A DNA stretch of 64,000 nt, from assembly GCA_019828595.1 (NCBI GenBank), contig JAHQRK010000019.1:124001-188000 (forward strand). The letters run 5' to 3'. Shown one piece after another: positions 20,566 to 37,838 of this stretch. The DNA is from Aphanomyces cochlioides (Eukaryota > Oomycota > Saprolegniomycetes > Saprolegniales > Verrucalvaceae). Each line of letters starts with the position of its first letter. Position 1 is the first letter of the stretch. The translations under genes and the position numbers were made by a program. Under the pieces are notes generated by a model, which was not told where the DNA came from, ran no database searches, and worked only from the letters and a program-made list of their open reading frames with translations.

Positions 20566-20901
20566 AGTAATAGCTGTTAAAGGTATATCGTGGCCACTTC
20601 AAAATTCTCACGACGAGAAGCATTAGTAAGGCATCATCCATTAGCTAAGAATGGATTCTCACCCATTTCCACAACCATACGCTAGAGACACCCTCGAGCA
20701 AAAACACAATTAACACTTGTGGAAGTGTCCAAAGGCAAAATGATCACCACTCAAAGCATTTTGCATCACCAGCATAATCTTGACCTTCATACAGACTGAA
20801 GATCTGAAGGTCACTGGTTCGATCCCGGTTCGTGGCATTGTTTTCACCACCACACCAATAAAATTCATTTGATCTTGAACAATAATTATTTATAATATAA
20901 T
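20566..20901. repeat. Left terminal inverted repeat, 336 bp, with tRNA-derived insertion
   Basis: It matches the reverse complement of 37563-37838. The first 225 bases are identical except for a run of five A against six. After CTTGACCTTCAT (20790) a block of about 68 bp is present only on this side, then homology resumes at AAAATTCATTTGATC and ends at TATAATATAAT (20901). Confidence 0.95.
20791..20837 (+). other. 3' half of a tRNA-Phe(GAA) gene inside the left inverted repeat
   Basis: The stretch ACAGACTGAAGATCTGAAGG holds the anticodon loop CTGAAGA (anticodon GAA). It is followed by a variable loop, a T arm with the B-box GGTTCGATCC, and an acceptor 3' strand ending CGTGGCA. Immediately after comes TTGTTTTC, which resembles a Pol III terminator, and no CCA is encoded. 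The matching 5' half (D arm and acceptor 5' strand) is absent upstream. The fragment is missing from the right inverted repeat, so it entered after or during the last copying of the ends. Confidence 0.85.
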
Positions 20902-21055
20902 GCGATATTCAGATTTAACAAATTACCCAATAATTTACGCAAAAACTTATTGGGAGTCATTTAGCGTTCCAGAAACACTTGATCGTCCTGATAAATTAAT
21001 TGTTGATAATAGGAATAAATTTGTTGAATCATTAGCGAAAGAATTTTTTGTATAA
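20900..21055 (+). CDS. Small ORF at the inner edge of the left repeat, 51 aa
   Basis: The frame MRYSDLTNYPIIYAKTYW.. ends at TAA 21053-21055. The start codon overlaps the last base of the inverted repeat. Composition (Asp/Asn/Lys/Tyr-rich, AT-rich codons) matches the element's other genes rather than the cargo gene next to it. No family was recognised, and it could be chance. Confidence 0.35.
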   Translation: MRYSDLTNYPIIYAKTYWESFSVPETLDRPDKLIVDNRNKFVESLAKEFFV

Positions 21056-21274
21056 ATCGATCGGGTAAAATTGCCAAATAACTGAAATGCGCAATACTTG
21101 AAATACACTTTATTACGTTTATTTTAATATGAATACGAACATTTTTTTTTGTATTCACTCACGCCCTGGTATTCGCAAGTACTGTAGCCGTCGTACGTCA
21201 AATGACAGGGGTAGGATCGCAAGGGTGTAGACTTTTGAGCGCCAGCAGAAACATATATATATATTGATCAATCC

Positions 21275-22952
21275 TTAGACTTCAATCTCAAGCACATATT
21301 GTGGAATCATATTCAAATATGACAAGTCGCACACCTGCTTCAGTCGATCGATGTGCTTGGTCAGAAGCGCAAACTCTTTTTTCACCTCCGGATCCTCAGC
21401 ATGAGCCATCAAATCTGAACAAGTAAAAATTTTCTTGGCGTGCAACTTCTTTTGCAGGACTGGCCCAATATTTGGAATACATCTCACGCCGGCTCCCATC
21501 AAATCTTCCAAACGCAAATTTTGAGAGATCAACTGTTGATTCTTGTACGAGCCGCCCATTCCTTGAGGCACAACAAATATCAGTTGAGCAAAGCGTGGGT
21601 TTTGTTTGATCTTGTCAACAAGCTCCAACTTTGCAAACAATTCCACTAATCCTGCACAATCGACTGGATGGTTCATTGATTTTGTAATTTGAAACAACAG
21701 CAACGTATGATCCAAATGGATAAATGAGTCAATGGACTTGAATGTTTGAGATATCGGGATTTGATACACATTCTGAAAGACCATTTCCAAAGTAAAGTTT
21801 GTTGCAAACCGCTCATAATGCCCCATGGTCTTATTGATCGTCAGCGATTTCTCTTGCTTTGGTTCGTCAAGTTGTGCGTACTTGAATGTATCACCTTCAA
21901 GAAATTTTTCATGCACGAGATTTTCAAACAACCACCCATTAAACGTAGACGCCTTTCCTGCACCGTCAAGCCACTTCATCAACTTTGCTCGCTCTTTGCT
22001 AAGTTTAACGGCGAGTTGGTTGTAAACCCGTATTCCAATCCAATCCGAACCAAACTCGAGTGTTGCAAATGTTGGATCCTCTTCAGGAATGTAATGCAGC
22101 AGTCGATGAACTACAAGATTTAACGGCACAGACATTTCAAAGCACGCTTGAACATCCTCGAACGTTTTAATCTTCTCAATCGCTTGTTGCATGTCGATCA
22201 ATCCCTTTCGATAGTATCTGGCTGATTTTGCCAGACAATAGCGCGGGACACCACCAAACTGTTTATATCTCTCGGCCAGTTCTTCGTCTGATATCTCCAA
22301 ATTCAACACTTTGACGGCGTCACCCAACTCGCTCAATTCCCAAACAGGCATATACAGCTCGCAATGAGCTGCGTTCTTCCGCATCGAATCGAGCCAACCA
22401 AAATTGGGACTTGTGAAAGTTACCATTTTTGAATCCGCAGGTGGCACAAATGGTGGTCCATCGCAGAGATGGAGTGCATTGGGATATTCATGCTGCAAAC
22501 GCGCAAACGACACTGAATCAAAAGTGTGCACCACAGGACCTTTTGGACCAAACACGACACACTTCATCAACCCTCGATCCTTGTTGAAAGAGGCAGTAAC
22601 AATAATAGCCTCTGGGTGTTCGTTTCGGTATCGAGAAAAGAAGTAGTCATAAAAGATCGATTTGCCAATGCCTACACAAAACACACGCGTCTGTTATCCA
22701 TCTTTTAATCGTATACAAGTTCAAACCTGGTGTTCCCGTCACTGAGATGTACTTGTATGTCTGTAGAAGTTCAAGTACACGATCATAATACGATGAGTAC
22801 GCTTTTCTCACATAGTATTCTTCCGCGAGATACTCGAAAGCAGTTGGCAAGCCGATAGTCACGTCCTGCACACTTTGCGCTTCGTCGGCCACGTTCGTCT
22901 GCGGTGCAGGAGCTGGGACGGGACTTTGCGCTAAGTTCGGGCTGCCGTCCAT
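21275..22952 (-). CDS. Crinkler/RHS-type P-loop NTPase-nuclease, Maverick cargo
   Basis: Two exons, 22952-22727 and 22671-21275, joined over a 55-bp GT..AG intron (22672-22726), give 540 residues. The intron splits the Walker A codons; splicing gives GTPGIGKS (residues 73-80). Further P-loop features are LHLCDGPP (142-149, Walker B position) and LYMPVWELSEL..YKQFGGVPRY (181-220), characteristic of Crinkler/RHS ATPases. A restriction-nuclease-like core follows (FENLVHEKF 324-332; DHTLLLFQITKSMNHP 396-411), then a helix-hairpin-helix (CIPNIGPVLQKKL, 473-485). There is no signal peptide or Crinkler header (LFLAK), so it is probably not a classic secreted effector. Codon usage is more GC-rich than in other element genes, and a TGATTGG box lies about 55 bp upstream, as in host genes here; both suggest capture from the host. 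Known: RHS/Crinkler proteins are linked to mobile elements; the role here is unknown. Confidence 0.85.
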
Positions 22953-23513
22953 TTTGAAAGTGACGATATTACCCAATAATTGCTTATCTCGTTGAATATT
23001 ATCAACCAATCATATGCAACGAAATCAGCGAATGGCTGTCAAAATCTCATAATGAAAAAATGTGTGCGATCTTCGTATTCCAACAAATGTTCTTTTCAAT
23101 TATTTAGATTTCCTTGGGTGTTAACAGTAAGTACTACTACATAGTAGTACTAACTCTTCTTTAGGTTTTTGGACTATGATACAATGTATTTCACAATATG
23201 TTCATTTTAAGTTATTTGTTTTCGAAAAAAAATGAGAAACGTGAAAAAACAGTTTGCTTCAATTTTCATCACCGTGTCCCCCATTTTGGACGGGCGAAGT
23301 TACCGTACTCCAATATCTCAACTATGTTGATCAGCATTTGGTACAAATATATTAAAATTTGATTTCCAACTTCCATTATAAAACATCACACAATTTTATC
23401 ATTATTTTATATTTATTCAAAACGGGACAATAACAATTGCACCTATTTTAATTATTGTAAAATTTAAAGCAAGATATAGAACATATTTATGTAATAATTA
23501 CGAAAACCGTGAA
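22953..23513. promoter_or_regulatory. Cargo promoter and AT-rich spacer with hairpin
   Basis: On the minus strand TGATTGGTTGATAAT lies about 50-60 bp upstream of the cargo ATG, a CCAAT-type box. A perfect 22-bp hairpin (AGTACTACTA, CA, inverse) sits at 23130-23151. The remaining DNA is AT-rich and noncoding. Confidence 0.5.
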
Positions 23514-23723
23514 ATGTTTGACCACGTAGAGATTTATAAAACAAACGATGATGCTTATATTGTAATTACAAGTCCATACGGAGATAAAGATTATGAAGGA
23601 TTCTATGGATTTAATAAAATCTATAAATTGTATAACGATTGGGCTACTACGTATTTTAAAAGAATGAGTAAAGCAGAAATAATTAACTGTAATAAAATAT
23701 TTAAAAGCGAGTTTGGATATTAG
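23514..23723 (+). CDS. Small acidic/aromatic ORF, 69 aa
   Basis: MFDHVEIYKTNDDAYIVIT.. with many Tyr, Asp and Lys, in AT-rich codons like the other element genes. No motif was recognised. It has the size and composition of small virion or regulatory ORFs of polintoviruses, but function is unknown. Confidence 0.4.
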   Translation: MFDHVEIYKTNDDAYIVITSPYGDKDYEGFYGFNKIYKLYNDWATTYFKRMSKAEIINCNKIFKSEFGY

Positions 23724-23745
23724 TATGTTTACATCTGTTTCAGTT

Positions 23746-23880
23746 TAACTCATAGTCAATGAAATAACCATATTTTTTGTCCATCATTTGTTTGAATTTA
23801 ACTCAATGTCAATAAAAGACGTGTTTTTATATGTCCATTTGATTGAAAATAACTCAATGTCAGTCATTATATATTTAGAG
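23746..23880. repeat. Imperfect tandem repeat, unit about 52 bp, 2.5 copies
   Basis: TAACTCA(A)TGTCAAT starts at 23746, 23799 and 23850; the intervening parts share TTTTT.TGTCCAT..TTGAA. The position, between two small ORFs in an AT-rich noncoding stretch, would suit a regulatory or replication-related site. Confidence 0.7.
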
Positions 23881-24073
23881 AGAAATGGTTAATCGGAACT
23901 GACTTGATTTATTATTGGAAAAATATGCCGTTTTCCCGACAAAAACCTGATGAACATAACAGACAGTCCAACATTTACTCACAAAAATTGAACATCCAAA
24001 CTTGACCAATTCAAAAATTCAATATTTAATTAATTTTAAAAATACCTATCACCTATAGAATATATTAAAAATA

Positions 24074-24379
24074 ATGGAATTAAATTTCGGAAAATACAAA
24101 GCTAAGACTATTCAAGAAGTTTTTGAGATTGATCAAAATTACTGTAAATGGTTAATAAATCAGGAAATGTTATTGTCAAACAAACCAGAAATTAAGACAT
24201 ATTTAACCGAAAAATTAAAAGATGCTGATTTGTCTTATAAAATGCGATGGGGTAAGCATAGAAATCTAACTCTGAATAAAATTAAAGAAATTGACCCAAA
24301 TTATATTGATTGGTTAAAAAATAATCAATATGTGATAGAAAATTGCCCAAAGTTAATATCTGAGCTTGAGCAATTTTAG
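24074..24379 (+). CDS. Small protein with two ExoX-C-like units
   Basis: A 101-residue protein made of two similar halves: LNFGKYKAKTIQEVFEIDQN..YCKWLINQ (residues 3-30) and MRWGKHRNLTLNKIKEIDPN..YIDWLKNNQ (57-86). The pattern FGKYKGKTIxEVxxxDxxYLxWL is that of the ExoX-like C-terminal domain (also found in DUF3820-type proteins), usually attached to nucleases and other DNA enzymes. Here it stands alone as a tandem pair without a nuclease. Inference: a DNA- or protein-binding accessory factor of the element. The last four bases overlap the end of the convergent protease gene. Confidence 0.65.
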   Translation: MELNFGKYKAKTIQEVFEIDQNYCKWLINQEMLLSNKPEIKTYLTEKLKDADLSYKMRWGKHRNLTLNKIKEIDPNYIDWLKNNQYVIENCPKLISELEQF

Positions 24380-24756
24380 CTTTCAAATGTTTTATCGTTT
24401 AGATCGTGGAACCCATCAAATAAATCCATACGATTATTCTGTTTTGCATATAACCAAAGCATACACCATATACCGCAATATTCAGCATACGTTGATTGAT
24501 ATTGTTTTTTGTTATATTTTTTTATTCCCAAAATCAAAGGCGGTGGCTCGCCCATAGAATCAAAATATTCATTTTTATAAATCGCAGTCCAATGTCCAAT
24601 TCCACCACCATTTTCTAACAAAATAATATAATTTCCGTTTTTGGGCAATTGTTTTTTTATTTCTTCAAAAGTGTAAATATTTGTTATTTCAACACCCAAT
24701 AAATTAGATAATTTAATTAACTGATGATCGCTTGTAATTCCTTTTATTAGGTCCAT
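24376..24756 (-). CDS. PRO: Adenain-like maturation cysteine protease
   Basis: A 126-residue protein. The catalytic His55 is in GGGIGHWTAIY, a likely acidic partner is Asp66 in YFDSMG, the oxyanion Gln87 is in YQSTYAEY, and the nucleophile Cys94 is in YCGIWC. The Gln-to-Cys spacing of seven residues equals that of adenovirus protease (Q115-C122). Known role: cleavage of capsid precursor proteins during virion maturation in adenoviruses, virophages and polintoviruses. It is short compared with adenain (about 200 aa), as is usual for Polinton proteases. Its gene is divergent from the capsid gene, with a shared 54-bp spacer. Confidence 0.85.
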   Translation of the reverse strand: MDLIKGITSDHQLIKLSNLLGVEITNIYTFEEIKKQLPKNGNYIILLENGGGIGHWTAIYKNEYFDSMGEPPPLILGIKKYNKKQYQSTYAEYCGIWCMLWLYAKQNNRMDLFDGFHDLNDKTFES

Positions 24757-24810
24757 TAAATAATTTAAAAAATAATCTTATCTGTGGCTGTATATAATTA
24801 ATAAAATATA
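24757..24810. promoter_or_regulatory. Shared bidirectional spacer between protease and capsid genes
   Basis: A 54-bp AT-rich spacer containing TATATAATTAATAAAATATA just before the capsid ATG. TATATA-type words also occur directly upstream of the fibre/ATPase pair (28890-28915) and the 443-aa gene (about 32985), suggesting element-specific TATA-like promoters. Confidence 0.45.
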
Positions 24811-26568
24811 ATGAGTGAGTATCAATTAGCCGATCAATTTTTATATGAAAGCTCTTTAAAGGGTGAACCATCTATTAGCGTTTCTAAAGGAAAACGAATG
24901 GTTCAAGTCCCCGATGTAAATCAAGGTAGCTATCAATCTGGTATTATTTCAATTGATGCTGCAACAAGTCTTCAAGGCGCTAAAGGCTTTGCTTCTTTAA
25001 AAGATGCTTATCTTACGCTACCATATATTGTCTCTATGAAAAATACTGGCGCTGGTACATTCGGTGCTATCAATCGTTATTGTACTGCTTTAAAAGCTGG
25101 AGTATTTAATATCATTGATTCAATGACAGTAGAACTTAATGGACAAACTATCATTACTGAATCGGATTTCAAACTCTACTGGAATAACATTCGAGCAATG
25201 ACTGAATGGAGCATTTCTGACCTTAATAAACACGGTGCTGACGCTTTTATGAGCGCGGATGATTGGCAATCTATGTCTTTTTCTTCAGCAACGACTTCGT
25301 TATCAGGCGATGGTTTTACAAACAATTTCTCAAATTGCACCGCTACTTTGGGAACTGTACCAACTGAGGCATCGTTGAAAGAAAATAATGGATTTATTTC
25401 TCGTATTTACAGCAATCCACAACTTACTGGAAACATTGACTCATCGGGAAACTATACGGGTGGAGTAAATGCCTACAATTGGATTACACAGCGATCTTCT
25501 GTAGCATCAACCATTGCAGCTCAAAACGGCAAAGGAGCTTTTGTCGTAAATACTGCACCAGTGGCGGGCTCGGTTCTTGGTGTTTGGCATCATATGTTAA
25601 AAATTCGTCTTGTTGATCTTCATCCAATTTTTAAAGAATTGGATCTTATCGGAAATCCTCAATTGAAATTACGACTTAAAGTAAATAGTGGTTATTGCGA
25701 TATTGCAGTTACTACTACTGGGCTAACGTTAGCTTCTACAACTATGACAAGCGGCAATACCGTTCCAGTTATGTTGGCCTCTGCTGATTCTGCAAACGCT
25801 CTTGCTGGATGTAATACAGCTTCGACGACTGTTCGTTTAGCATTTGGTCCCCTTCAGAATAACATTACAACGCTAGCCCAAGCTGGGCAATACCTTCCAT
25901 TTACAACAGCCAGATTAAATATTCCATTCTATGATATTGCTAATCCGTTACCGATTGTAAGTCAGCCTGTAAAGAACGTGAAATATCTTGATTGTTATGC
26001 TCAATATTTCCGAGGAAAAGCCGGCACTGGTGCTCTTTCTTCAGCTCAACAAAATGCTACATTCAATCTTCAATTATCTGGTTCTTGGAAAAATATCAAA
26101 TATGTTTGTTTGGTACCATACAGCGAAACAAGCAGCGGACATTTTGCAAATTCGTCGGCTAATGGTGTAGAACAATTCCAAAGCCCATTTGATAGTGCGC
26201 CTTGGACTTGTCAAGCAGGTAGTTCAATTCGTAGCTTTCAAGTTCAAGTTGGAAATGACAACGTATTTAGTAAAACATTGGATTACGACTTTGAAGCTTG
26301 GAATGACGAATTTAAGAAACTTGGAGCAATTAATGGTGGTCTTACCCACGAAATTTCAAATGGTTTGATTGATTTTCAAAAGTGGCAAACGATTCAGCGT
26401 ATTATGGTCGCCGACTGTTCTCGTATTACTAACCCAGACGTTCCACAATCAGTTATCGTAAGCGGTGTCAATGCTTGCTGCCAAGGAACAAATTGCTTGA
26501 TTTTAGTTGTGTATGAACGAGATCTTTCTGTTGACCGTTTAACTGGGGAAATTCATCATTGGACTTAA
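24811..26568 (+). CDS. MCP: Major capsid protein (double jelly-roll type)
   Basis: 585 residues starting MSEYQLADQFLYESSL. The size, lack of signal or membrane segment, Ser/Thr/Asn/Gly-rich beta-type composition and position among protease, fibre, ATPase and penton genes fit the Polinton double jelly-roll capsid protein (usually about 550-650 aa). The N-terminal segment YLTLPYIVSM and the following MTVELNGQ are reminiscent of the first jelly-roll of virophage and Polinton capsids. The assignment is mostly from synteny and size. The stop is followed by CTAAGCGAGCTTAG, a small hairpin. Confidence 0.8.
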   Translation: MSEYQLADQFLYESSLKGEPSISVSKGKRMVQVPDVNQGSYQSGIISIDAATSLQGAKGFASLKDAYLTLPYIVSMKNTGAGTFGAINRYCTALKAGVFNIIDSMTVELNGQTIITESDFKLYWNNIRAMTEWSISDLNKHGADAFMSADDWQSMSFSSATTSLSGDGFTNNFSNCTATLGTVPTEASLKENNGFISRIYSNPQLTGNIDSSGNYTGGVNAYNWITQRSSVASTIAAQNGKGAFVVNTAPVAGSVLGVWHHMLKIRLVDLHPIFKELDLIGNPQLKLRLKVNSGYCDIAVTTTGLTLASTTMTSGNTVPVMLASADSANALAGCNTASTTVRLAFGPLQNNITTLAQAGQYLPFTTARLNIPFYDIANPLPIVSQPVKNVKYLDCYAQYFRGKAGTGALSSAQQNATFNLQLSGSWKNIKYVCLVPYSETSSGHFANSSANGVEQFQSPFDSAPWTCQAGSSIRSFQVQVGNDNVFSKTLDYDFEAWNDEFKKLGAINGGLTHEISNGLIDFQKWQTIQRIMVADCSRITNPDVPQSVIVSGVNACCQGTNCLILVVYERDLSVDRLTGEIHHWT

Positions 26569-26641
26569 ATACACAAAAAAAACTACTAAGCGAGCTTAGA
26601 ATTGCTTTTTTTATTACTAAGGGTCGAGAGACTTCGCTCTA
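26569..26641. terminator. Convergent 3' spacer with hairpin
   Basis: Between the stops of the capsid (plus) and fibre (minus) genes. CTAAG-CGAG-CTTAG gives a five-pair stem with a tetraloop, followed by a T-rich tract. Possible 3'-end signal; unproven. Confidence 0.35.
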
Positions 26642-28858
26642 TTACAGCAAAGCGCTGCTTTTTGTGCGTCGAACAGGTTTAGTTGTCAGTTGTTCCATCT
26701 GCATCTGCTGCTTTCCAACAACTTGAGTAAGATTATCAATTTTCTTAAGCGCACGTTTAAGAGCAGAATGCAGCAATGGTACAATACTAATCACATCGAC
26801 AACAAGGCGGCTGTCAGATCCAATCTGAATAACATCACCATTAACACACTCAATCATTTCCTCGGGCAATGGTTCATCCGAATCAGTAGCGCCAACTAAC
26901 ACACTCAAACCATGTTTCACGAGTTCTTGTGCACCATAGCCATAATGGCGTTTATCAGGATTTGCCTTATAGCTATACTCGATAGGAGTGATATTACGGA
27001 CAAATCGCTCGGATTGATCTTGAGATAGATCGATTACATCTGATTTTGTTCTCAGATCTGAAAGACAATCAATTTCACCAGAAGCAACCATAATCCCACC
27101 ACTCGTCTTAAGAGAGAAGTTTCTATTACTAAATCCAGTCGCCTGACCAACTGAACTACTCGTAATGAAAGTAAAGCCCGATCCAGTTGATTGTGAGCCA
27201 GTACCAAGGATTTCCAGAGGACATCCAGGATTGTTTGTGCCCACGCCCCAAAAACCGTTAGATGACTTATAGAAGAGTGAGGATTGAATGTTGATATCTT
27301 TGTATTGAGACGATGAATAATCGAAGCATTGTAGAATGCCAACACTCGAACCAGTCGAATAATGCATATGCATACCTGGACCTGTGGTGCTAAGATCACC
27401 CGCATTGAGACCATAGCAATGAACTCCACCATTAGCAATATTGAGATTACCACCAGTACTCAGCTGCATCTGCTGAGTACCAGTGATAGCCGGCGTAGTT
27501 GAGTTGTTGTAAAACCAAGTATGCAAGCCACCAGACGTATAATTGAGTGATAAGCTCGATACGCCGAGCATGTAGGATGGGCTTGTGTTATTGGTCTGAG
27601 CAAGACAAATGATATTGTCTTTCGATGTATTAGTTCCGAGATCCATTTTATGACTATTGCGCGCTGAGATACCAGATAGTTGAATCTGCCCATTATTAGC
27701 AAACGTATAATATGTGCTTGTTCCTCCATTCGTACTCGATAGCACAATATCGCCTCCAGAACTTGTATTGATAGTCGAATTAACGGTTGCACTATAATAC
27801 ATTGCCAAGTGGTATCCAACGCTTGTAATCGAAAGGGTCCCGCCAGTATTCGAAGTAGAACCAATCGTAGCCGTAGTTGCTGAGATCGATGCGCCAGAAT
27901 TGATAGCTCCACCAGTATTGATAGCTCCTGATACGCCCATTCCTCCAGCGATTACCAAACTACCATTCGACTGCGTTGTTGAAGCAATATTAGAATTGAT
28001 ATTGATTATACCAGAAGCTGCTACTTCGAGTAATCTGCTACCTCCGTAAAATCCAATTTGAAATCTATTATTGGTTGATCCGCTGCCAGCATAATAAAAG
28101 GAAAGTTCAGCTTGATTATTATTGTTGGTTGATTGACCAAGCGTAATATAAGAAGTGCCAGCAATAGCAAGATTATTGTTTAAGCAAGATATTGCTCTTG
28201 ATGTATCTGTGCTCGTTCCTTGAAGTATAGATCCGCTTACTGATGCATTACTATCTACATACAGTTTCTTAGCAATAGCGCACCCACCATATATAGTCAT
28301 TGAGCCGCCTGCACTCGAAGATGTAGCATCCGAAGTGCTTAGAAAACCTGTATTGCCTGCAGTGGTCATACTCATCAGAAATGATCCATTCCAAATGTAG
28401 AGCTGACCAGGAAGCTGTGAATTCGTCGATCCACGGCTACCAATCTCGAACGTACCTTGGTCATTAATAAATGCGCACGTCGATCTTCCCGCAGTATTTG
28501 ACGAACTATTTAGATTGATTTGCGCGGTTCCATTAATGATATTGATATCGCTACCGGCATAAATTTTCTTGGACACCGCCAATCCACCTGCAGTAATCAT
28601 CGAGCCTGTAATAGTGCTTGATGCATCGGTAGTGCTTGTGTTTGTGTAAATACCAGTCATACCAATCGAGTTGATTCCACTTATTGAAAGCCCTGAATCT
28701 AAAATTAATGCCTTTTTAGCACTTGCTTGCCCAGCAGTTAGATTACTGATATATGAGACTCTAGGATCACTTTTTCTCAAATAAACATCACTTGTGTAAT
28801 TTGACGGATTGTATGTTGAACTATTTATAGTAGGTGTATTAGCTATGATTCCACTCAT
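26642..28858 (-). CDS. Fibre-like protein with S74 intramolecular chaperone
   Basis: 738 residues. The body is Ser/Thr/Gly/Asn-rich and contains repeated GS(M/L)..(A/Y)GG.(A/G)V..K-type units (for example MITAGGLAVSKKIYAGSD, MTIYGGCAIAKKLYVDS, LVIAGGMGVSGAINTGG), as expected for a trimeric fibre shaft. At residue 600 begins a Peptidase_S74-type chaperone domain: SDLRTKSDV (cleavage before Ser600, with its Lys), FVRNITPIEYSYK, RHYGYGAQELVKHGLSV and VVDVISIVPLLHSALKRALK, ending in a coiled coil. Known: S74 domains drive trimerisation of phage and viral fibres and cut themselves off. Inference: a host-attachment fibre or spike. It lies between capsid and ATPase genes in the structural block. Confidence 0.85.
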   Translation of the reverse strand: MSGIIANTPTINSSTYNPSNYTSDVYLRKSDPRVSYISNLTAGQASAKKALILDSGLSISGINSIGMTGIYTNTSTTDASSTITGSMITAGGLAVSKKIYAGSDINIINGTAQINLNSSSNTAGRSTCAFINDQGTFEIGSRGSTNSQLPGQLYIWNGSFLMSMTTAGNTGFLSTSDATSSSAGGSMTIYGGCAIAKKLYVDSNASVSGSILQGTSTDTSRAISCLNNNLAIAGTSYITLGQSTNNNNQAELSFYYAGSGSTNNRFQIGFYGGSRLLEVAASGIININSNIASTTQSNGSLVIAGGMGVSGAINTGGAINSGASISATTATIGSTSNTGGTLSITSVGYHLAMYYSATVNSTINTSSGGDIVLSSTNGGTSTYYTFANNGQIQLSGISARNSHKMDLGTNTSKDNIICLAQTNNTSPSYMLGVSSLSLNYTSGGLHTWFYNNSTTPAITGTQQMQLSTGGNLNIANGGVHCYGLNAGDLSTTGPGMHMHYSTGSSVGILQCFDYSSSQYKDINIQSSLFYKSSNGFWGVGTNNPGCPLEILGTGSQSTGSGFTFITSSSVGQATGFSNRNFSLKTSGGIMVASGEIDCLSDLRTKSDVIDLSQDQSERFVRNITPIEYSYKANPDKRHYGYGAQELVKHGLSVLVGATDSDEPLPEEMIECVNGDVIQIGSDSRLVVDVISIVPLLHSALKRALKKIDNLTQVVGKQQMQMEQLTTKPVRRTKSSALL

Positions 28859-28926: not shown

Positions 28927-29610
28927 ATGAGTTCCAATGAAATAGAGGACTGGGGAGGAAAATTACCTAAGGCTTATAAAAGTAAGTCTCATGGTATAAA
29001 CAAAGATCTTAAAATTCAGAACCTTTTCAGAGCTATCGTGCTGGGACCCAGCTATTCTGGTAAGACGAATCTAATTTTCCATATTCTCAAGCACTCTCCT
29101 CATATTTACAGCCATTTGCATATTATTGCTCGCAATCCTGAGCAAAGTCTGTATAATTACTTAAAAGATAAATTAAAAGACTTCATTACGATTTATGACC
29201 CAAATGAACCACCTCCTTCTGTTGACGATATTCCAAATAATGGCTCATTACAATTAGTTATCATCGATGATTATTCAAATGACAAAATGCTTCAAAAAAA
29301 TATATTTACGCATTATTTCACCCGTGGAAGACATAAATTGTTAAGCACTATATTTTTAGCTCATTCATATTTTGACACATATAAAACCATTAGATTGAAT
29401 AGCGAATATGTATTTATTTTAAAAGCAAATAGCAAAAGAGATCTTCAAATGGTTTGTAAGGATTTTAACATTCCTGAAGTTAATGAAGACAAAATGATCA
29501 AGGCATACAATAAAGCTACTGCAAGCAAAGGCCAAGCTCTGTTTGTTGATTCTGTTAATCAAGAATTGAGGTATAATTTTGGGAAAAAAATTGATTTGAA
29601 TACACTTTGA
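28927..29610 (+). CDS. ATP: FtsK/HerA-type genome-packaging ATPase
   Basis: 227 residues. Walker A GPSYSGKT at 40-47, Walker B LVIIDDYS at 110-117 with the acidic pair, and a downstream TRGRHKLLSTIFLAHSYFD segment matching the sensor region of A32-like ATPases. Known role: pumping DNA into preformed capsids in NCLDVs, virophages and polintoviruses. The compact length fits Polinton packaging ATPases. It is followed in the same orientation, after 79 bp, by the penton gene. A small hairpin (TTGC-TTTCA-GCAA) follows the stop. Confidence 0.93.
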   Translation: MSSNEIEDWGGKLPKAYKSKSHGINKDLKIQNLFRAIVLGPSYSGKTNLIFHILKHSPHIYSHLHIIARNPEQSLYNYLKDKLKDFITIYDPNEPPPSVDDIPNNGSLQLVIIDDYSNDKMLQKNIFTHYFTRGRHKLLSTIFLAHSYFDTYKTIRLNSEYVFILKANSKRDLQMVCKDFNIPEVNEDKMIKAYNKATASKGQALFVDSVNQELRYNFGKKIDLNTL

Positions 29611-29689: not shown

Positions 29690-30547
29690 ATGAGCTCACT
29701 TATTGTTCTTAATTCAACTCATATTGTGAATAATGGCTATAATAATACGCTAAGATATACATTTGGGAATAGTGCAGTCAATTTTAGCAATATGGAAATT
29801 GCTGTTGCTGGGATTCAATTGTATAATTCTCAATTCAATATTAATTCAACCTTGTACGGAAATAATACATTTCAAATTATTGTACCATATGGCGCTACTA
29901 CATCGACCATATCTATCACTTTACCTAATGGTTATTACAGTTATGCTGATATTCAAAATTATGTAGCTTCTAAACTTATCGCGGCTGGTGCATATCTGAT
30001 TGATTCTAATGGAAACAATGTGATATATTTTAATATTTCAGAAAATTCTACATATTATGGTTGCCAAATTGATTTATTACCTACTCCTTTAAGTTTACCA
30101 ACAGGCTGGTCGCTACCAGCCAGTGGGTTATATTCAACAGGCGTACCAACAGGTGGCTATGCTCCGCAAATTATCATTCCAAGTGGATTTAATTTAATAG
30201 TTGGCTATCAAGTTGCAACATTTCCTCCCTCTCGTCAAACGACTGCTCAATCGTTTTTAAGTAGTTTTACTCCACAAGTAAACCCTGTTTCAAGCTTTTT
30301 AGTTCGTTGTAATTTAGTTAATAATCCATACACTTCTGTTCCTGATGTTTTAACGACTTTTACATCACAAAACACCACTATTGGGGATTTAATAGATGTA
30401 AGATATCCTGAGTATTCTTGGGTAGAAATTTCTGATGGCTCAAGACCATACATAGAAGTGATAATTTGCGATCAGAATTATAATATTGTCAAGTTTGAAG
30501 ATAGTCAAATTTTGATTCAGTTGATTATTAGACCGAAAAAAAATTAG
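29690..30547 (+). CDS. mCP: Penton (minor capsid) protein, single jelly-roll
   Basis: 285 residues. The pattern LNSTHIVNNGYNNTLRYTFGNSAVNFSNMEIAVAGIQLYNS.FNIN and ITLPNGYYSYADIQNYVASKL is the typical N-terminal half of Polinton and virophage penton proteins (LPxGxYxxxDI). The remainder is beta-rich, with a VSSFLVRCNLVNN segment and an ending of the LIIRPKK type. Known role: pentamer at the capsid vertices. It sits directly downstream of the packaging ATPase, as in many Polintons. Confidence 0.85.
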   Translation: MSSLIVLNSTHIVNNGYNNTLRYTFGNSAVNFSNMEIAVAGIQLYNSQFNINSTLYGNNTFQIIVPYGATTSTISITLPNGYYSYADIQNYVASKLIAAGAYLIDSNGNNVIYFNISENSTYYGCQIDLLPTPLSLPTGWSLPASGLYSTGVPTGGYAPQIIIPSGFNLIVGYQVATFPPSRQTTAQSFLSSFTPQVNPVSSFLVRCNLVNNPYTSVPDVLTTFTSQNTTIGDLIDVRYPEYSWVEISDGSRPYIEVIICDQNYNIVKFEDSQILIQLIIRPKKN

Positions 30548-30558
30548 CTTACTATTCT

Positions 30559-30753
30559 CTAATTATTTCTTTCGATCTCTATAATTGCTTTTTTATGTGC
30601 ATATGATCTTTGATGACTAAAACGATATCTCACGTTTACTGATTCACCGCAATCACAAATGTATCGGTTTCTTTTGTATGGATTCAGATTTCGTTTAACT
30701 TGAGCATCAATCATTTCTTGAGTCTTCTTTATTAATGTTAAATCGATAAGCAT
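30559..30753 (-). CDS. Small zinc-finger-like protein, 64 aa
   Basis: The ATG at 30753 is chosen; the longer frame would need a GTG start. The C-terminal half reads RYICDCGESVNVRYRFSHQRSYAHKK, with Cys33, Cys35, His47 and His53 able to form a small zinc site next to a basic stretch. Short zinc-finger proteins occur in polintoviruses and giant viruses. The upstream spacer contains the 12-bp palindrome CTCTATATAGAG. Function unknown. Confidence 0.55.
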   Translation of the reverse strand: MLIDLTLIKKTQEMIDAQVKRNLNPYKRNRYICDCGESVNVRYRFSHQRSYAHKKAIIEIERNN

Positions 30754-30867
30754 TGTTGAAAGCACAAGCTTATACTCTATATAGAGGTATTTTTTTTACT
30801 ACCGATTTTTTACAAAAGCTTGATGTTTTGGTGTTCAAAGCTCATGGTCAAACGTAAAATGGTATAT

Positions 30868-31347
30868 TTATACTAGTCGAAAACTACCACCACGTTTCTT
30901 CGCACGAACAAGGGCCATACGATCTTTAGCCGCTTGAGAGCCCTTTTGAAAACCTACGCCGCTAAGTTTACGAATGCCTTCCCTAATAGGGGCCAATTCT
31001 GGATTACTATATGCGATTGCATCTCCAACTCCACTTAGTACAGGTTTAATTACACTATTCCAAGCCGTACTCAAACCTGATCTCAAACTATCCCAAATGC
31101 TTCCGCCTTGGTGATGGCTTAAATCGTGATGAATTTCCCCTTCAGTAAAATCCAAACGAGCTCCTTTATTAGCTTTTTGAGCTTGAACTATTTTGCTATA
31201 ATTAGCTGGATGCACAAGCATTGGCTTACTTCCTTTTAAATCATCAGCGCTAAATACAACTGTACCACCTTTGGATGCTTTAGAAAGTTTTTTCTTTGAA
31301 AGAGATGATGATACGTGAACTACTTTATAACCTCCTGTTCCTTTCAT
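30868..31347 (-). CDS. Putative minor virion protein with adenain-type sites (protein VI/X-like)
   Basis: 159 residues, basic. The features are a GG-rich N-terminus (MKGTGGYK), a predicted amphipathic segment at 83-112 (SIWDSLRSGLSTAWNSVIKPVLSGVGDAIA) and a basic tail (RAKKRGGSFRLV). Three stretches match the adenovirus protease consensus (M/I/L)xGx-G: MKGT-G (1-5), LSGV-G (104-108) and LSGV-G (128-132). In adenoviruses the precursors of proteins VI, VII and X are cut at such sites, and protein VI has an amphipathic membrane-lytic helix. Inference: a virion-internal protein processed by the element's own protease, perhaps membrane-active. Homology itself is unproved. Confidence 0.6.
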   Translation of the reverse strand: MKGTGGYKVVHVSSSLSKKKLSKASKGGTVVFSADDLKGSKPMLVHPANYSKIVQAQKANKGARLDFTEGEIHHDLSHHQGGSIWDSLRSGLSTAWNSVIKPVLSGVGDAIAYSNPELAPIREGIRKLSGVGFQKGSQAAKDRMALVRAKKRGGSFRLV

Positions 31348-31418
31348 ATTTCGTTGATTTAAACGAAGTCTATATTTTATGAATTACATAAAAAATAAAA
31401 ATATATTATTAAATCATC

Positions 31419-31625
31419 TTAAAGAGCAAATGTCTTTGATTTTTGCTCTAATTTCTTTTTTCTTTTATATTCATCAATAGATGGTCCATATCTTTGAAAA
31501 CTTGATTTTGGTTCTGTATTATCAATGATTAAGTTTTCCATCGTTTCAATTAGTCTATCTTCATTTTCTTTGGCCTTTTTATTATATATTTTTAAAAATG
31601 GATGTTTAACATTAATCGTTCTCAT
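31419..31625 (-). CDS. Small basic protein, 68 aa
   Basis: MRTINVKHPFLKIYNKKAKE.. with 15 or so Lys/Arg and a predicted helix; the end is KRKKKLEQKSKTFAL. Its stop lies 71 bp from the protein VI-like gene, and its start is 5 bp from the stop of the next gene upstream, so it is probably co-transcribed with the 443-aa gene. No family was recognised. Confidence 0.5.
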   Translation of the reverse strand: MRTINVKHPFLKIYNKKAKENEDRLIETMENLIIDNTEPKSSFQRYGPSIDEYKRKKKLEQKSKTFAL

Positions 31626-31630
31626 AGCTT

Positions 31631-32962
31631 CTATATTGTCATCATCAAAATATCATTGAATTGTTTATCGCTTAAAATTCCATTTTGAAATAAATGAATC
31701 GACATCTTCTTTAGTTCCGATTTGATCAAAGGATTATCATTACCGATCTTGATTTCACCAATGAGCTTATTGAATTCAGCAACATATTTATCACTACCAT
31801 CTCGTGGATCGCTAATAGTTTCTTTAAACGAATTTAATAGTTTACAAACTTTTAGAGTATCGTAAAACGCAATTTTATCTTTGTTGTCAAGCTGATTATA
31901 AAGACTATAATCAATAACTCCATCAAATAACAAGATTTTGATGATTTGAAGTAGTTTATCTGACATTTTTAATCGTTTAAAACAGGAATTACCAGACGGA
32001 TGGCGTAAACTTAAATATCCTTGACCAAGAGCTTTCAAATTTACATATTTAGCTCCAAGAGGTCGATATAAATAATCTTTTTCAAAATTATGTAAATGCG
32101 AAATTCCCGCGCCGATTAAGCCTCGTCCAATGAGTTTTTTACGGGCGATTAATTTAAAGCCTTGGCCTTCCATTTTGATATCAGGTTCGCTTTTAATTGA
32201 CATTTGAGTAACGCCTTGTTGGATGCCATTCACACGTCTATTTTCATCAATAATTTTGTCAATTTTTTCTTTTGTAGCAACCCAATCGTAATCAATTATA
32301 CGTTTATTCTTATTTTCATGATCACTCCGTATGGTAAATAGTCTTCCCGATCTTCCCAAGTATACACTCTTATCTTCATCACCATTTAGTAATATCGGAG
32401 AAATCTTTCTTGTTTTAAAGAAGTTCCAATTGTCCTTATAAAGTTTTATAATTTGTTCTCTTGGAGTTTTTTTGTTATCCTCTGCGGGAAATATTGGTTT
32501 TGACTCTTCGTCGTCTTCATCAGACAAAATTCTGAAACGATTTCTTGTTTCGACAGGGGGCATATTTTCTAATTTGATTTGATCCCTTGTTTTAATTCTG
32601 GGTTCGTATCTTGGATTACTTTCATATTGAGTTCCAGTTGTAATACCCATTGGCTCGGTTTGAGCAGATCTGGCTTTCGTATTTCGTTTAGTTTGGGTTT
32701 GTATAGTTCTACCGTTTGATTCGGTTTGAACTTCAATGGTTCTTGGGTTTGATGAATCTGTTTGAATTTCAATTGTTCTGCCAATATTTGAAGACATTTG
32801 AGGTTTTGGTAGAATTACATTTGATGCAACATCACTACTCCAAATAGCAGTTTCATATGCCTTTTGTTTAATAGCATCGATCTTTTTATCAAGTTTGATT
32901 TGATCATAATATTCTTGTAATTTTGCTTTTTTATCAGCGAGATCCTTATAGCTCGGATACAT
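31631..32962 (-). CDS. Putative virion protein with LC8-like QT repeats and adenain sites
   Basis: 443 residues. A coiled-coil-like N-terminus (8-40) is followed by four tandem motifs: IEIQTD (64-69), IEVQTE (76-81), TIQTQTK (86-92) and RSAQTEP (98-104), spaced 11-12 residues. This is the pattern of multivalent binding sites for dynein light chain LC8. After a disordered acidic stretch comes a cluster of three (M/I/L)xGx-G sites: MEGQ-G (264-268), LIGR-G (277-281) and LIGA-G (282-286). The C-terminal domain (LGAKYVNLKALGQGYLSLRHPSG..KMSDKLLQII) resembles a recurrent Polinton protein of unknown role, from memory of such sequences. Inference: a precursor of a minor capsid or core protein with a trafficking segment. 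Confidence 0.6.
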   Translation of the reverse strand: MYPSYKDLADKKAKLQEYYDQIKLDKKIDAIKQKAYETAIWSSDVASNVILPKPQMSSNIGRTIEIQTDSSNPRTIEVQTESNGRTIQTQTKRNTKARSAQTEPMGITTGTQYESNPRYEPRIKTRDQIKLENMPPVETRNRFRILSDEDDEESKPIFPAEDNKKTPREQIIKLYKDNWNFFKTRKISPILLNGDEDKSVYLGRSGRLFTIRSDHENKNKRIIDYDWVATKEKIDKIIDENRRVNGIQQGVTQMSIKSEPDIKMEGQGFKLIARKKLIGRGLIGAGISHLHNFEKDYLYRPLGAKYVNLKALGQGYLSLRHPSGNSCFKRLKMSDKLLQIIKILLFDGVIDYSLYNQLDNKDKIAFYDTLKVCKLLNSFKETISDPRDGSDKYVAEFNKLIGEIKIGNDNPLIKSELKKMSIHLFQNGILSDKQFNDILMMTI

Positions 32963-33000
32963 TTTACTACGAATTAATTAACGTATATATATTTGGTAGT

Positions 33001-34089
33001 TTATATTACCTGTGCAAAATAATTTTTTTCTAATTGACTCATTTGATTTTTATTAAATATTCTTAGATTCTTCTGAGGCTCCCATGATTCACTTCCATCA
33101 GCCCATTTAACCAGATATTTGTATTGACCATTTTTTAGTTTCTTGTGACTTAAAATTTTCTCAGCTTCATAAATGTCATTTGCTCTTCCATCAGCGTCAG
33201 TAGTTTGAGCTTCTACTATTTTTATATCATTAACTGGTTTATATACGACGTGATTATTTTTTGATCGTAAATGCGTCTTTAGTCCATCTAATCCAATAAA
33301 TTCATAAACGGATTTTGAATATTTAGCACCTTCTTTTTGAAATGGATTTTTTGGTTTCAATTTGTAACGTACTTTTGAGCCAATCGGGATGCTTTCTAAG
33401 ACTTGCTTTGCTACATTTTGGTTATGATCATTTTCGGAAAATATGACTTTTCCTTTCATCTCATTTGGCGTTGCATGAATGGATGAATGTTCCGTGTCAT
33501 TGTAATTTGAAATTGCATCGTTTAGATGCTTTTGAGTTAGCTTTTTAAAGATTCCTGTCTCGAACATTTTGGTTAGTCTTGATTTTAACGTTCTAATGAA
33601 TCGATCTACCTTGCCTAGAATTGTATGATCCCCAGACTCTCCAGCGTAATGACTGATATGTTCTTTTGTTAACAGTTCTTGAACTTTTTTATTCATAAAC
33701 TCATTTCCATTATCTGATGTAAACGAATGTGTTTTGTTTCGAGAAAGAAATTCTTCTATTGCTTTTCTAACTACAGGCGCAGTTTTGTTTTTCAACAATT
33801 TGGCGAAGCCGATTCGACTGTTAATATTGATTGCGATAAATATTGGTTGTTTTTGCCAAAAAGCTAAATCCATTTGCCATGAGTTTGGATTGTTGCTTGC
33901 AATTTTGAACTCAGGAAATTTCTTGTTTTGAGCTGAATGCTGTTGAATATCAGTTTGTTTCTTATACCAATCGCGAACTTGTTTTAGAGTAATAGAATTA
34001 TTAAGTTCTTTTGCTTTTTTATACAATGCTGTTGCGCTAATGAATCCAATCTTTGGATCATAGTATAATTTTTTAAGAAGTGCAGACAT
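33001..34089 (-). CDS. INT: RVE-family integrase with C-terminal chromodomain
   Basis: 362 residues. An N-terminal helical region (1-60) precedes the RNase-H-like core with Asp74 (WQMDLAF) and Asp126 (FTSDNGNEF). The third acidic residue, at the exact D-35 spacing, is Asp162 in ILGKVDRFIRTLK instead of the usual Glu. The C-terminus (306-345) is a chromodomain: YEAEKILSHKKLKNGQYKYLVKW and SESWEPQKNL. Known role: integration of linear DNA at a staggered 6-bp target. The chromodomain may steer insertion to modified histones. The ORF stop is separated from the next gene by 38 bp; the polymerase stop is only 9 bp upstream. Confidence 0.93.
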   Translation of the reverse strand: MSALLKKLYYDPKIGFISATALYKKAKELNNSITLKQVRDWYKKQTDIQQHSAQNKKFPEFKIASNNPNSWQMDLAFWQKQPIFIAININSRIGFAKLLKNKTAPVVRKAIEEFLSRNKTHSFTSDNGNEFMNKKVQELLTKEHISHYAGESGDHTILGKVDRFIRTLKSRLTKMFETGIFKKLTQKHLNDAISNYNDTEHSSIHATPNEMKGKVIFSENDHNQNVAKQVLESIPIGSKVRYKLKPKNPFQKEGAKYSKSVYEFIGLDGLKTHLRSKNNHVVYKPVNDIKIVEAQTTDADGRANDIYEAEKILSHKKLKNGQYKYLVKWADGSESWEPQKNLRIFNKNQMSQLEKNYFAQVI

Positions 34090-34098
34090 ATTATATAT

Positions 34099-37000
34099 CT
34101 AAGCAAATGAAACTTTTCTTGTAAACTTCAATCTCTTGCTTACCTTTTGTGTCTTAGTGTTAATGTCGATTGAACAACATTCGCTTAGATCAAATTCCAT
34201 TGATTCACCATTATACATCTTCACATACTTTTCGAGAGGATTTTCTTTAAGAAGCTTTCCAGGAATACCCTTCATACGAATATGATGTCCCTCAACATCA
34301 TTACCATCGCAAGATAGCACATTCACATAGCTTTTTTTTCCTAAGAATATTGACTCCTTAGCATAAACCTCTCCTTTTGAACCTTCAAGACTAAAATCTG
34401 TATGAAATTGCCCCATTTGCTTTCCAATTAGTTCTCTTCCATATTTTTCTTTAAAAGCGATTGCCAATTTTGGAACCCCATCACGATCAATCATCATCGA
34501 ATCTGTATCCTGATACCAAATGTTAGCTTTAATATCTTCTGCAAGACACATAACTTCATTCATAATATGTTTTGAAGAATCGAGTATCTGAACTCCAAGA
34601 TGAGCTGGTGAATAATGTTCGTAGAGATATTTGTGTTCTTCAAATAATGCCAAATCATCAGTAATTGGCGTTCTTGAAATCATTTTATGAATCTTTCGTT
34701 TTGTTCGCTCTTTAATCTCGTCAGATCCTTTGACAAGTATCTTCTCTTTTACAATTGGTTTTTGAATTAGCTTTCCGTAAGCGCTATTGAGGAGCAATTT
34801 GATTCCTTCTTGTAGAGGATTGCCTTCTTTTTTCAACTTAAGTCGTTCGTTGAATAATTCTTTTACTGCTTCTACTATCTTTGGATTAAAACCTTCATCC
34901 CAATAACAACCTTCAATTACCGTATATGTAGCATTTTGAAATTTTACAATATCTTCAAGAGCTTGCTTTCCAATAACCATTGTTTGTCCTATGATATCAT
35001 TTGTAAAACCACGTGATCCATCTTGTTGAATACTTAAAAGTGGAAAACTTTGATGTTTTCCGATAGAGTTAAATCTAACTCGAGCAATGTAATAATCAGC
35101 ATTATTCGGAATTGTATCTTTAAAGAATTTTGCTTTACCTTTTACATAACCGCTTAATATTGATTGTCCTGATGGATATAGTGAAACAGCATCAAAATCC
35201 GATAATTGATGTTTAATGTGATACTTCTTATTATCTCGAGTCATAATTCGTCCTCCAACAATAGCTTGTCTGATAAATCCCAGAACGATTCCATTTTGTT
35301 CATAGCAACCATCAAAGCAATCTTGATTATGTTGAATTGCATAAGCAATTGATGGCATAGACATAAATCGATATACATCAATGTTGAAACGATTAATAAA
35401 CATCATTCTGAAAGCTTCAAAACAAGTGTGAAGAACATCAACATCGCGATTACAATAATGTATAGCATACTTCTGGATATCGATTTGGTCTTCAATTACT
35501 GCACCGATCTTGTTTGCGTTGGCAATCATAGCTCCTTTGTCTTCAAATCCATTGAGATAGCTAAGCTTCCACATTGACTTGAAGTTGTTTTCATTTATGA
35601 AGTCATGATGAAATGATTCTTTTTCTAAGTTAAGATCTTTGCTTGCATCCTTGAACATCTTTGGAAGATTTGCAAGCTTGCTATTAATAAAACTCATTGA
35701 GCATTTGACTACAAGTTCAGAGCTTTTATAAAAGCAATGAGCTTGCTTTAGTCGAGTTCCGCATTCTATCATATTGCTCTTTTGAGAAAAGCTTGTTACG
35801 TGTTTCATTAGAAAACGCAAATCGAATCCAGCATTGTGAGCCCAAAGTAAATTATGACTCTTTTCGGGAATTGACTCTAGAAATCGTTGAGCACAGTCAA
35901 ACCCATAAAAGTTTTGTGTTTCGCCTGTTGAATACAGCTTTCTAAATTTATACTTTAGGATCTTGAAAGATATGCAGTAGGCAACGTGCTCGTTATCATT
36001 ATTTACTAATGTTTCAAAATCGAAATAGATAACATTAAAGTTGATTATTTCTTCATATTGTTTAGTGTATTTATTAATTACTTGATTGAAAGGCGATTGA
36101 CCAAATTTCATTGTACCATCAACACGTCCAATTTCTTTGAATGTATTCTCATCAAAGTCTTCTTCATATAATGAATCAACTTTTTGATACTCATTGTTAA
36201 GTAGTTTAGGAACATTACTTTGAGTAATAGGAATAAGTAATTTATCTCTGTTGTGATATAAATGTGAAATGACTTCAAAACTGTCAAGAAACTTGATTCG
36301 TTTTGAATTATAACTAACTCGTCCGTGATGAAGTATAAATTCAGTCGATCCTTCTATTTTTACAATTTCTGGATTATTAAGAGCTGTTAGAGTGATTTTA
36401 GTTTCTTTAATAGCAAATACGTGTTTTGGCGTTACTCCAAGACGAATTACATTGTTACTATGAGGTCCATAATTATTAATATTATAACTTTTAACTCCAT
36501 TATTGTTTTTATAGGTTTTTACTTCCAATCTTAACTTAAACTTTTCTGCTATTTTTTTAAACAAATTAGTTGTAATACCTGAATGAAACATTAGTTGCTT
36601 AATTTTATTAACAATGACTTTTGAAACTCCTCCTTGCTCAAGAGCATATAGAAAGCATGGAATTTCTGATTCTTTTGGAAGACCATTTGGTGATTCAGGA
36701 TATACTTGAAATTGGTCAAGTAAATAATCTGCTTTTGTTAAATAACGGAAAAAGTTTTTGCGAGATGATCTGGATTGCTTTGGATCTTCAATCCATTCTA
36801 ACGTTATCATTGTTGTTGGAAGAATGTTAAGATCAACATCAGCTCCGGATGTGTATTCATTATTTTCAGTTATATAAAGATTTTCAATATTTACTTGATT
36901 AGAATTCAAATGATACGTTCGAAGAGTTGATCCATCTATATCCAGAAAATGAACTAATAAGTTTTTGTCGGCAGGAGCAATGATGTTTGGACGAATTCGC

Positions 37001-37272
37001 TTAAATTGTTCAAGAAGCAAAGTTGTTGTTTGATAACTGTTAACCTTCTTTAATGCTTTGAAATCACTTAATTGTGATTTAGCTTTATACATCTTAAAGA
37101 CTGATGCAATTTTAGTCTGAGAGTCAGCTTTACGTTGTGGTTGATTTAGGATTTCTTGGATCTTGGATATTTTCATATCCCATCTAACGGGGAGACCAAG
37201 TGATTTAGCCTGTTGATAGACTACTGACTTGGCTCTAGTTGCTTTAATTGCATTATTAGCTTTTGAAGACAT
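34099..37272 (-). CDS. pPolB: Protein-primed family B DNA polymerase
   Basis: 1057 residues. Exonuclease motifs: FDFET (Asp418, Glu420), AHNAGFDLRF (Asn480, Asp484) and HYCNRDVD (Tyr606, Asp610). Polymerase motifs: A, DAVSLYPSG at 694-702; B, KLLLNSAYGKLIQKP at 825-839; C, YQDTDSMMID at 920-929; and a KGIPGK motif near the end. The sequence between motifs A and B is of the length expected for TPR1/TPR2 insertions of protein-primed enzymes. The first 400 residues may hold the terminal-protein or OTU-like region seen in some Polinton polymerases, but no motif was identified there. Known role: replication of the linear genome from the terminal repeats. All catalytic motifs look intact. Confidence 0.97.
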   Translation of the reverse strand: MSSKANNAIKATRAKSVVYQQAKSLGLPVRWDMKISKIQEILNQPQRKADSQTKIASVFKMYKAKSQLSDFKALKKVNSYQTTTLLLEQFKRIRPNIIAPADKNLLVHFLDIDGSTLRTYHLNSNQVNIENLYITENNEYTSGADVDLNILPTTMITLEWIEDPKQSRSSRKNFFRYLTKADYLLDQFQVYPESPNGLPKESEIPCFLYALEQGGVSKVIVNKIKQLMFHSGITTNLFKKIAEKFKLRLEVKTYKNNNGVKSYNINNYGPHSNNVIRLGVTPKHVFAIKETKITLTALNNPEIVKIEGSTEFILHHGRVSYNSKRIKFLDSFEVISHLYHNRDKLLIPITQSNVPKLLNNEYQKVDSLYEEDFDENTFKEIGRVDGTMKFGQSPFNQVINKYTKQYEEIINFNVIYFDFETLVNNDNEHVAYCISFKILKYKFRKLYSTGETQNFYGFDCAQRFLESIPEKSHNLLWAHNAGFDLRFLMKHVTSFSQKSNMIECGTRLKQAHCFYKSSELVVKCSMSFINSKLANLPKMFKDASKDLNLEKESFHHDFINENNFKSMWKLSYLNGFEDKGAMIANANKIGAVIEDQIDIQKYAIHYCNRDVDVLHTCFEAFRMMFINRFNIDVYRFMSMPSIAYAIQHNQDCFDGCYEQNGIVLGFIRQAIVGGRIMTRDNKKYHIKHQLSDFDAVSLYPSGQSILSGYVKGKAKFFKDTIPNNADYYIARVRFNSIGKHQSFPLLSIQQDGSRGFTNDIIGQTMVIGKQALEDIVKFQNATYTVIEGCYWDEGFNPKIVEAVKELFNERLKLKKEGNPLQEGIKLLLNSAYGKLIQKPIVKEKILVKGSDEIKERTKRKIHKMISRTPITDDLALFEEHKYLYEHYSPAHLGVQILDSSKHIMNEVMCLAEDIKANIWYQDTDSMMIDRDGVPKLAIAFKEKYGRELIGKQMGQFHTDFSLEGSKGEVYAKESIFLGKKSYVNVLSCDGNDVEGHHIRMKGIPGKLLKENPLEKYVKMYNGESMEFDLSECCSIDINTKTQKVSKRLKFTRKVSFA

Positions 37273-37389
37273 AATTTTTCAGATCTATATAATTACAATT
37301 TTTCTTTCAAGATCAAATTGTTTTTCTTGAAGATGTATATGAGTTGGAATAAAAAAAATATAGCTTAGAAAATATCAAAATTCTGTGTC

Positions 37390-37545
37390 TTAAACATTGA
37401 TTTGTCTTAACAAATTAACTTCTCTTTTGTAGTGATTTCTAGCATTAATTCGATCCAAGATGCGTTGTTGATGTTTGTAGTAATAATCGTGATTCACCTG
37501 AACTCTTGGTTTTTTGTCTTCGGGTGATTTCTTTGGTGGAGCCAT
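37390..37545 (-). CDS. Small basic ORF, 51 aa, near the right repeat
   Basis: MAPPKKSPEDKKPRVQVNHD.., ending at the TAA 37390-37392. It is Lys/Arg/His-rich with a helical C-terminal half, and AT-rich codons. It sits between the polymerase start and the right inverted repeat (18 bp from it). Size and basic charge would suit a DNA-binding or terminal protein; this is speculation. Confidence 0.45.
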   Translation of the reverse strand: MAPPKKSPEDKKPRVQVNHDYYYKHQQRILDRINARNHYKREVNLLRQINV

Positions 37546-37562
37546 TTGTGATTATTTGTTGT

Positions 37563-37838
37563 ATTATATTATAAATAATTATTGTTCAAGATCAAATGAA
37601 TTTTAAAATTTTATGAAGGTCAAGATTATGCTGGTGATGCAAAATGCTTTGAGTGGTGATCATTTTGCCTTTGGACACTTCCACAAGTGTTAATTGTGTT
37701 TTTTGCTCGAGGGTGTCTCTAGCGTATGGTTGTGGAAATGGGTGAGAATCCATTCTTAGCTAATGGATGATGCCTTACTAATGCTTCTCGTCGTGAGAAT
37801 TTTGAAGTGGCCACGATATACCTTTAACAGCTATTACT
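37563..37838. repeat. Right terminal inverted repeat, 276 bp
   Basis: Reverse complement of the left repeat, lacking the 68-bp tRNA-containing insertion (here replaced by AAAATTTT) and with one extra A in a homopolymer run. Confidence 0.95.

Follow-up and report, generated by a model that had tools for sequence, protein, structure and literature searches.

This study concerns a 64,000-nucleotide window of the Aphanomyces cochlioides genome (assembly GCA_019828595.1, contig JAHQRK010000019.1, positions 124,001 to 188,000 of the forward strand) and an integrated element within it, very probably a DNA virus of the Polinton or polinton-like kind, which carries a cargo gene that looks like a mosaic of exchangeable segments. 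The element occupies positions 20566-37838 of the window (17,273 bp) and has AG..CT termini. The left terminus at 20566, AGTAATAGCTG, has GACGTG directly outside it (20560..20565, forward strand), and the right terminus at 37838 is followed directly by the second copy of this target-site duplication (37839..37844, forward strand). Inverted-arm comparison reveals terminal inverted repeats (TIRs) with arms of 148, 92 and 43 nt and 99-100% complementarity: the left repeat has an outer part at 20566..20795 and an inner 43 nt at 20859..20901, both on the forward strand, and the right repeat lies at 37563..37838 on the reverse strand. The element splits an ankyrin-repeat gene, whose left part (19738..20565, forward strand) and right part (37845..39023, forward strand) both match Ank_2, and joining the flanks at the duplication yields a single 668-codon frame that runs on across the rejoined site. 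The first-pass annotation had described a complete, young, exactly bounded Polinton; the termini, inverted repeats, duplication, open core genes and rejoined frame confirm this. It had also proposed a search for empty sites, and none was detectable in the assembly with 300 joined flank letters as the query, which matched only the two flanks. Within the left repeat lies a 65-bp piece of tRNA-Phe gene DNA (20792..20856, forward strand). It matches, at 98% identity, the units of a tandem array found on contig C15, and tRNA-Phe(gaa) was detected in this array. This piece is missing from all 19 other examined copies of the element, the CAGA at its start is common to both sequences at the junction, and it looks like a templated insertion.

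Between the ends, the main open reading frames of the window element are intact (585, 738, 227, 285, 362 and 1057 aa). The major capsid protein (MCP; 24811..26568, forward strand) is predicted to be a double-jelly-roll capsid protein and has no sequence match in Pfam, PHROG or PDB. Its relatives number 164 proteins, many of which are from oomycetes at 44-78% identity among the 120 listed, and 33 of these 120 were aligned with the window sequence. A fibre-like protein with a C-terminal Peptidase_S74 chaperone domain (26642..28858, reverse strand; Pfam E 4.5e-07) is followed by a packaging ATPase of the A32 type (28927..29610, forward strand), which matches Pox_A32 at E 1.6e-07 and 31.5 bits against a cut-off of 22.8. 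The integrase (33001..34089, reverse strand) combines an rve domain with a C-terminal chromodomain, as indicated by Pfam and by sequence matches to retroviral integrase chains (E 4e-08) and chromodomain chains; Chromo lies above the Pfam cut-off, and rve, despite an E value of 2.6e-06, lies below it (28.1 bits against 32.6). The family B DNA polymerase (polB; 34099..37272, reverse strand) matches DNA_pol_B_2 at E 1.2e-25 and 90.8 bits against a cut-off of 25.8, and would be protein-primed. The remaining frames include a 101-aa protein with two ExoX-like_C stretches (24074..24379, forward strand; Pfam E 7.4e-18), a 126-aa protein (24376..24756, reverse strand) which, from its position and a motif, may be an adenain-like cysteine protease and for which no supporting match was found, and a 285-aa protein (29690..30547, forward strand) that also has no supporting match and is, by position only, a possible minor capsid (penton) protein. 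Two further open reading frames encode proteins of 159 aa (30868..31347) and 443 aa (31631..32962), both on the reverse strand.

The cargo gene lies between the left repeat and these core genes, on the reverse strand. Its first exon (22727..22952), beginning MDGSPN, was recognized from the open reading frame and annotated relatives, and it is separated from exon 2 (21275..22671) by a 55-bp GT..AG intron (22672..22726) that falls inside the Walker A codons; the intron was read by eye, and relatives show the spliced GTPGIGKS. A ATTACCCAATAATT stretch is shared by window positions 20905-20935 and 22951-22981, the second of which is directly upstream of the cargo start codon; it may be a control motif or a chance resemblance. 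The cargo product resembles a Crinkler-RHS-like nucleoside triphosphatase (NTPase) with a restriction endonuclease-like (REase-like) and helix-hairpin-helix-like (HhH-like) C-terminal region, the fold matches in exon 2 being weak. Among named relatives, those nearest to the cargo product come from Aphanomyces euteiches: one is 92% identical across 84% of the query, another 97% across 44% and a third 88% across 41%. Others occur in the chytrid Terramyces, and one relative (P0135) is labelled as a member of the Crinkler (CRN) family. The cargo alignment comprised 32 of 54 matches plus the window sequence.

A search of the whole assembly (76.2 Mb in 94 contigs) reveals that the window element is one of at least 20 near-identical full-length copies, a lower bound since 61 matches were listed and 40 of 140 candidates were scored. 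Of the 20 left ends taken, 19 were matched by the whole 501-base query and the one on contig C4 in two pieces; the right end of the copy on C12 was seen only in the extracted piece and not in the search listing. Not included in any count of 20 are a copy on C56, represented by its right end and an interior in which the cargo is rearranged, and diverged copies such as those on C20, C5, C50 and C3. All 20 examined copies have the same ends, and 19 of them are bounded by perfect 6-bp duplications, each a different 6-mer, which in practice excludes chance. The remaining copy (C13a; contig C13, 223543-240773) has no such duplication, and its flanks are mutually inverted over about 2.0 kb at 99.95% identity (L069 4045-6058, L070 17-2029), which may reflect either a fold-back duplication mediated by repeats or an artefact of the assembly. 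Thus, the other copies that the first-pass annotation had proposed to look for are present, and its view that intact elements are uncommon is not supported. Intact insertions of this kind are also reported from many protists, and one oomycete genome is said to contain as many as 299 capsid genes (PMC10120064).

The copies are nearly clonal in their core. The outer repeat arms of about 232 nt are identical in 11 of the 20 copies when one alignment-edge position is set aside, and polB differs at 0-12 of 3177 nt between pairs of the 15 copies with a 1059-codon frame; two more copies have polB frames of 1040 and 1063 codons, and in three the frame is broken. MCP is open and full length in 17 copies (one of the others has a stop and two are split), the integrase is open in 17 and split in three, and the fibre gives a full-length match in a single open frame in 14. 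All of MCP, integrase and polB are open in 13 copies including the one with the 1040-codon polB, and in 12 without it. Some of the frame breaks may be assembly errors, since such errors and false consensus have been reported for multi-copy elements of this type (PMC10120064). Two side observations can be added. The genome contains a second near-identical multi-copy Polinton family (contigs C1, C2, C3, C18, C25, C56 and C78), with seven capsid genes at 61% identity to the window element, one at 62%, and integrases at 56-58%; none of 43 cargo matches lies near its capsid genes. An element at C20:705198-711230 has an MCP at 95% and a fibre at 83% identity, and close to it lies a distant relative of the cargo (22% identity, 608-codon frame, E 4.9e-4), perhaps another cargo gene in the same slot.

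Against this nearly clonal core, the cargo gene and part of the fibre are variable, a contrast which, like the cargo gene itself, goes beyond the first-pass annotation. Nucleotide diversity is low in the polB region (0.0016), the outer repeat (0.0028) and positions 20860-21270 (0.0029). It rises within the cargo, reaching 0.037 for the C-terminal part, 0.045 for exon 1 and 0.112 for the variable block at positions 22300-22700, where it is 68 times that of polB. This block of about 400 bp requires a minimum of 9 recombination events, compared with 1 for the 3.3-kb polB region. Exon 2 is nevertheless open over 471-473 codons in all 20 copies, which encode 18 distinct proteins. The ratio of nonsynonymous to synonymous polymorphism (pN/pS) is 0.52 overall and 0.69 in codons 40-80; the cargo is constrained, and positive selection is not clear. 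For 17 of the 20 copies (the window copy itself and 16 others), the fibre shows 98-100% identity to that of the window copy in every 200-column block, whereas in three copies (L078, L087 and L091) the centre drops to 51-76% and the outer blocks hold 85-100%. This pattern resembles the swapping of receptor-binding parts. S74 fibres are described as widespread in polinton-like viruses (PMC12220804).

The variation in the cargo is organized around a segment of about 75 bp beside the Walker B strand, between CVVF and HLYDGPP, which occurs as three types in 9, 6 and 5 copies; the window copy carries type 1 (22469..22549, reverse strand, delimited by copy comparison). Cassettes of the same type are 97-100% identical to the query. 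The blocks before and after the cassette each occur in six variants and are linked to each other (their mutual information is reached in 0 of 5000 shuffles), but the cassette is linked to neither of them (a fraction of 0.55 and 0.96 of the shuffles gives at least as much). Nine flank pairs are found, three of which occur with all three cassettes and six with one each; these counts share ancestry and are not independent. The preserved linkage of the flanks fits short-tract conversion or selection for matching flanks, as crossing over would break it. A candidate reason for such matching is offered by exon-2 residues 44 and 87, which flank the cassette and are E-R in 13, K-D in 4, D-R in 2 and E-H in 1 of the 20 copies; K-D is found in 14 of 33 aligned family members (the window and P0121 included), in which E-N, D-D and other pairs are also present. 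This charge pair may close the cassette loop. The cassettes are also present outside the element. On C3, the segment of a solo gene matches type 3 at 94% and the other types at 49-55%; most nearby parts of this gene reach 83-93%, and residues 113 to the end 71-81%. Type 2 is carried by a solo gene on C78 at 86%, against 42-44% for the other types and 74-80% for the part that starts at residue 113, and by a solo gene on C2 at 88%. Type 1 was found nowhere but in its 9 copies. Different gene lineages thus have cassette types in common, by exchange or by long retention.

The rve-type integrase, family B polymerase, long inverted repeats, 6-bp duplication, predicted double-jelly-roll MCP and A32-type ATPase are all characters of Polintons/Mavericks, and we put the probability that the element is an integrated DNA virus of the Polinton or polinton-like kind at about 90%. 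It differs from described Polintons/Mavericks in the lack of a Pfam, PHROG or PDB sequence match for its MCP and in the addition of an S74 fibre and an NTPase cargo. It probably belongs to the Gossevirus (GKS1) group, the link being drawn through MCP relatives that are oomycete proteins, which published work assigns to the group. Oomycete elements with rve and protein-primed PolB, TIRs and 5-7 bp duplications are already known (PMC7805220; PMC10120064), and the group agrees with our element in size, TIRs, duplications of 5-7 bp, the presence of rve and protein-primed PolB in some oomycete members, and MCP relatives in Phytophthora and other oomycetes. The differences are the many near-identical full-length copies in one genome and the cassette-mosaic NTPase cargo. 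The cryptophyte polinton-like viruses with S74 fibres are similar as well, and include rve members with 6-bp duplications, but they belong to another host lineage; ochrophyte elements are said there to have no S74, and the available part of that paper does not mention a cassette-mosaic cargo (PMC12220804). The cargo, in turn, is like Crinkler-RHS (CR/CRN) proteins in the exchange of short fragments between genes and in its predicted layout, a putative P-loop NTPase followed by a putative REase-like region (PMC5289972 and PMC3726527). In contrast to those proteins, no header domain is matched here, the gene lies inside a virus-like element and variation is highest next to Walker B, within the NTPase part. 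In the literature on Maverick/Polinton elements in Aphanomyces, with Crinkler or with gene conversion, judged by titles and the openings of abstracts, we found no description of this element family or of the cargo mosaic, a mention in Zhang et al. 2016 (Crinkler-RHS) not being excluded. Our element is thus of a known kind, well preserved and multiplied, while the pattern of cargo diversity is unexpected and well supported at the level of sequence.

How might such a pattern arise? In the explanation we propose, the rve integrase would insert linear element DNA through staggered 6-bp cuts, the polymerase would copy the element from its inverted ends, and the capsid protein, ATPase and fibre would form a particle. 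Short gene-conversion-like exchange would shift cassettes among co-resident copies and the related genes of the genome. Selection on the recognition target of the NTPase, be it an incoming virus, a rival element or a partner, would maintain the cassette alternatives. The cassette would then be a recognition part kept diverse by short conversion-like exchange, which we propose tentatively. An equally tentative extension is that the cargo forms a locus for combinatorial recognition. It would encode an NTPase-nuclease carried by the virus, the specificity segment of which is swapped as cassettes of about 75 bp among co-resident integrated viruses and genomic relatives under balancing selection, and it would act as an exclusion, immunity or antiviral system among the integrated viruses of a eukaryote. 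Most likely, the cargo would help such elements to compete with one another, or would defend the host cell that they share, rather than serve transposition.

A somewhat better chance, still short of even, may be given to the alternative that the mosaic goes back to ordinary recombination between co-infecting viruses, in a free or an earlier population, and that the copies were inserted later, with no exchange between integrated copies. The nearly identical core and repeats and the intact duplications suggest that many copies may stem from one recent wave, and haplotypes shared with separate records indicate that some are not brand-new; however, cassette types shared with solo genomic genes require exchange with, or long retention in, the host genome, and the uniform core is left unexplained. 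The mosaic could also be an artefact of assembly or polishing, in which reads from near-identical copies were blended into a false local consensus. Every copy comes from one assembly, and false consensus is documented for such elements (PMC10120064), but blending would tend to homogenise the copies, and the cargo is the most diverse of the pieces examined and is open in all 20 copies. Furthermore, type 2 and type 3 cassettes are present at solo genes, and three proteins found in separate A. euteiches records agree with haplotypes of the copies, the amino acid differences being 0/225, 1/397 and 2/214 in gapless comparison. Two of these records (locus prefixes AeMF1 and LEN26) appear to represent other isolates. 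Such matches argue against an artefact or false consensus, which we consider very unlikely.

Two further alternatives concern what is being carried. That the element is now only a transposon with capsid genes as passengers would agree with the broken MCP in three copies, but MCP is full length and open in the other 17, its 164 relatives, with many oomycete proteins at 44-78% identity among those listed, point to conservation over long times, and the swapped fibre centres fit use in infection; we regard this alternative as doubtful. The idea that the element carries, as its cargo, a Crinkler effector gene directed at plants draws on the Crinkler label of P0135 and on Phytophthora sojae, in which 63 duplicated CRN genes are reported to be flanked by Polinton repeats and CRN genes are described as exchanging short fragments (PMC3726527). 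Yet a Crinkler N-terminal header domain finds no Pfam match in exon 1, nor in the 33 family members at E <= 0.01, and relatives exist in the chytrid Terramyces, which makes this reading improbable.

In summary, this study describes a probable integrated virus of which a single genome contains at least 20 copies, all young and with exact boundaries; its timing, activity and particle formation are open to test. A nearly clonal core beside swapped fibre centres and a cassette-mosaic cargo makes competition, or host protection, through variable recognition genes a testable proposition, and the element places a Crinkler-RHS-like gene inside a virus-like vehicle, not merely beside repeats.
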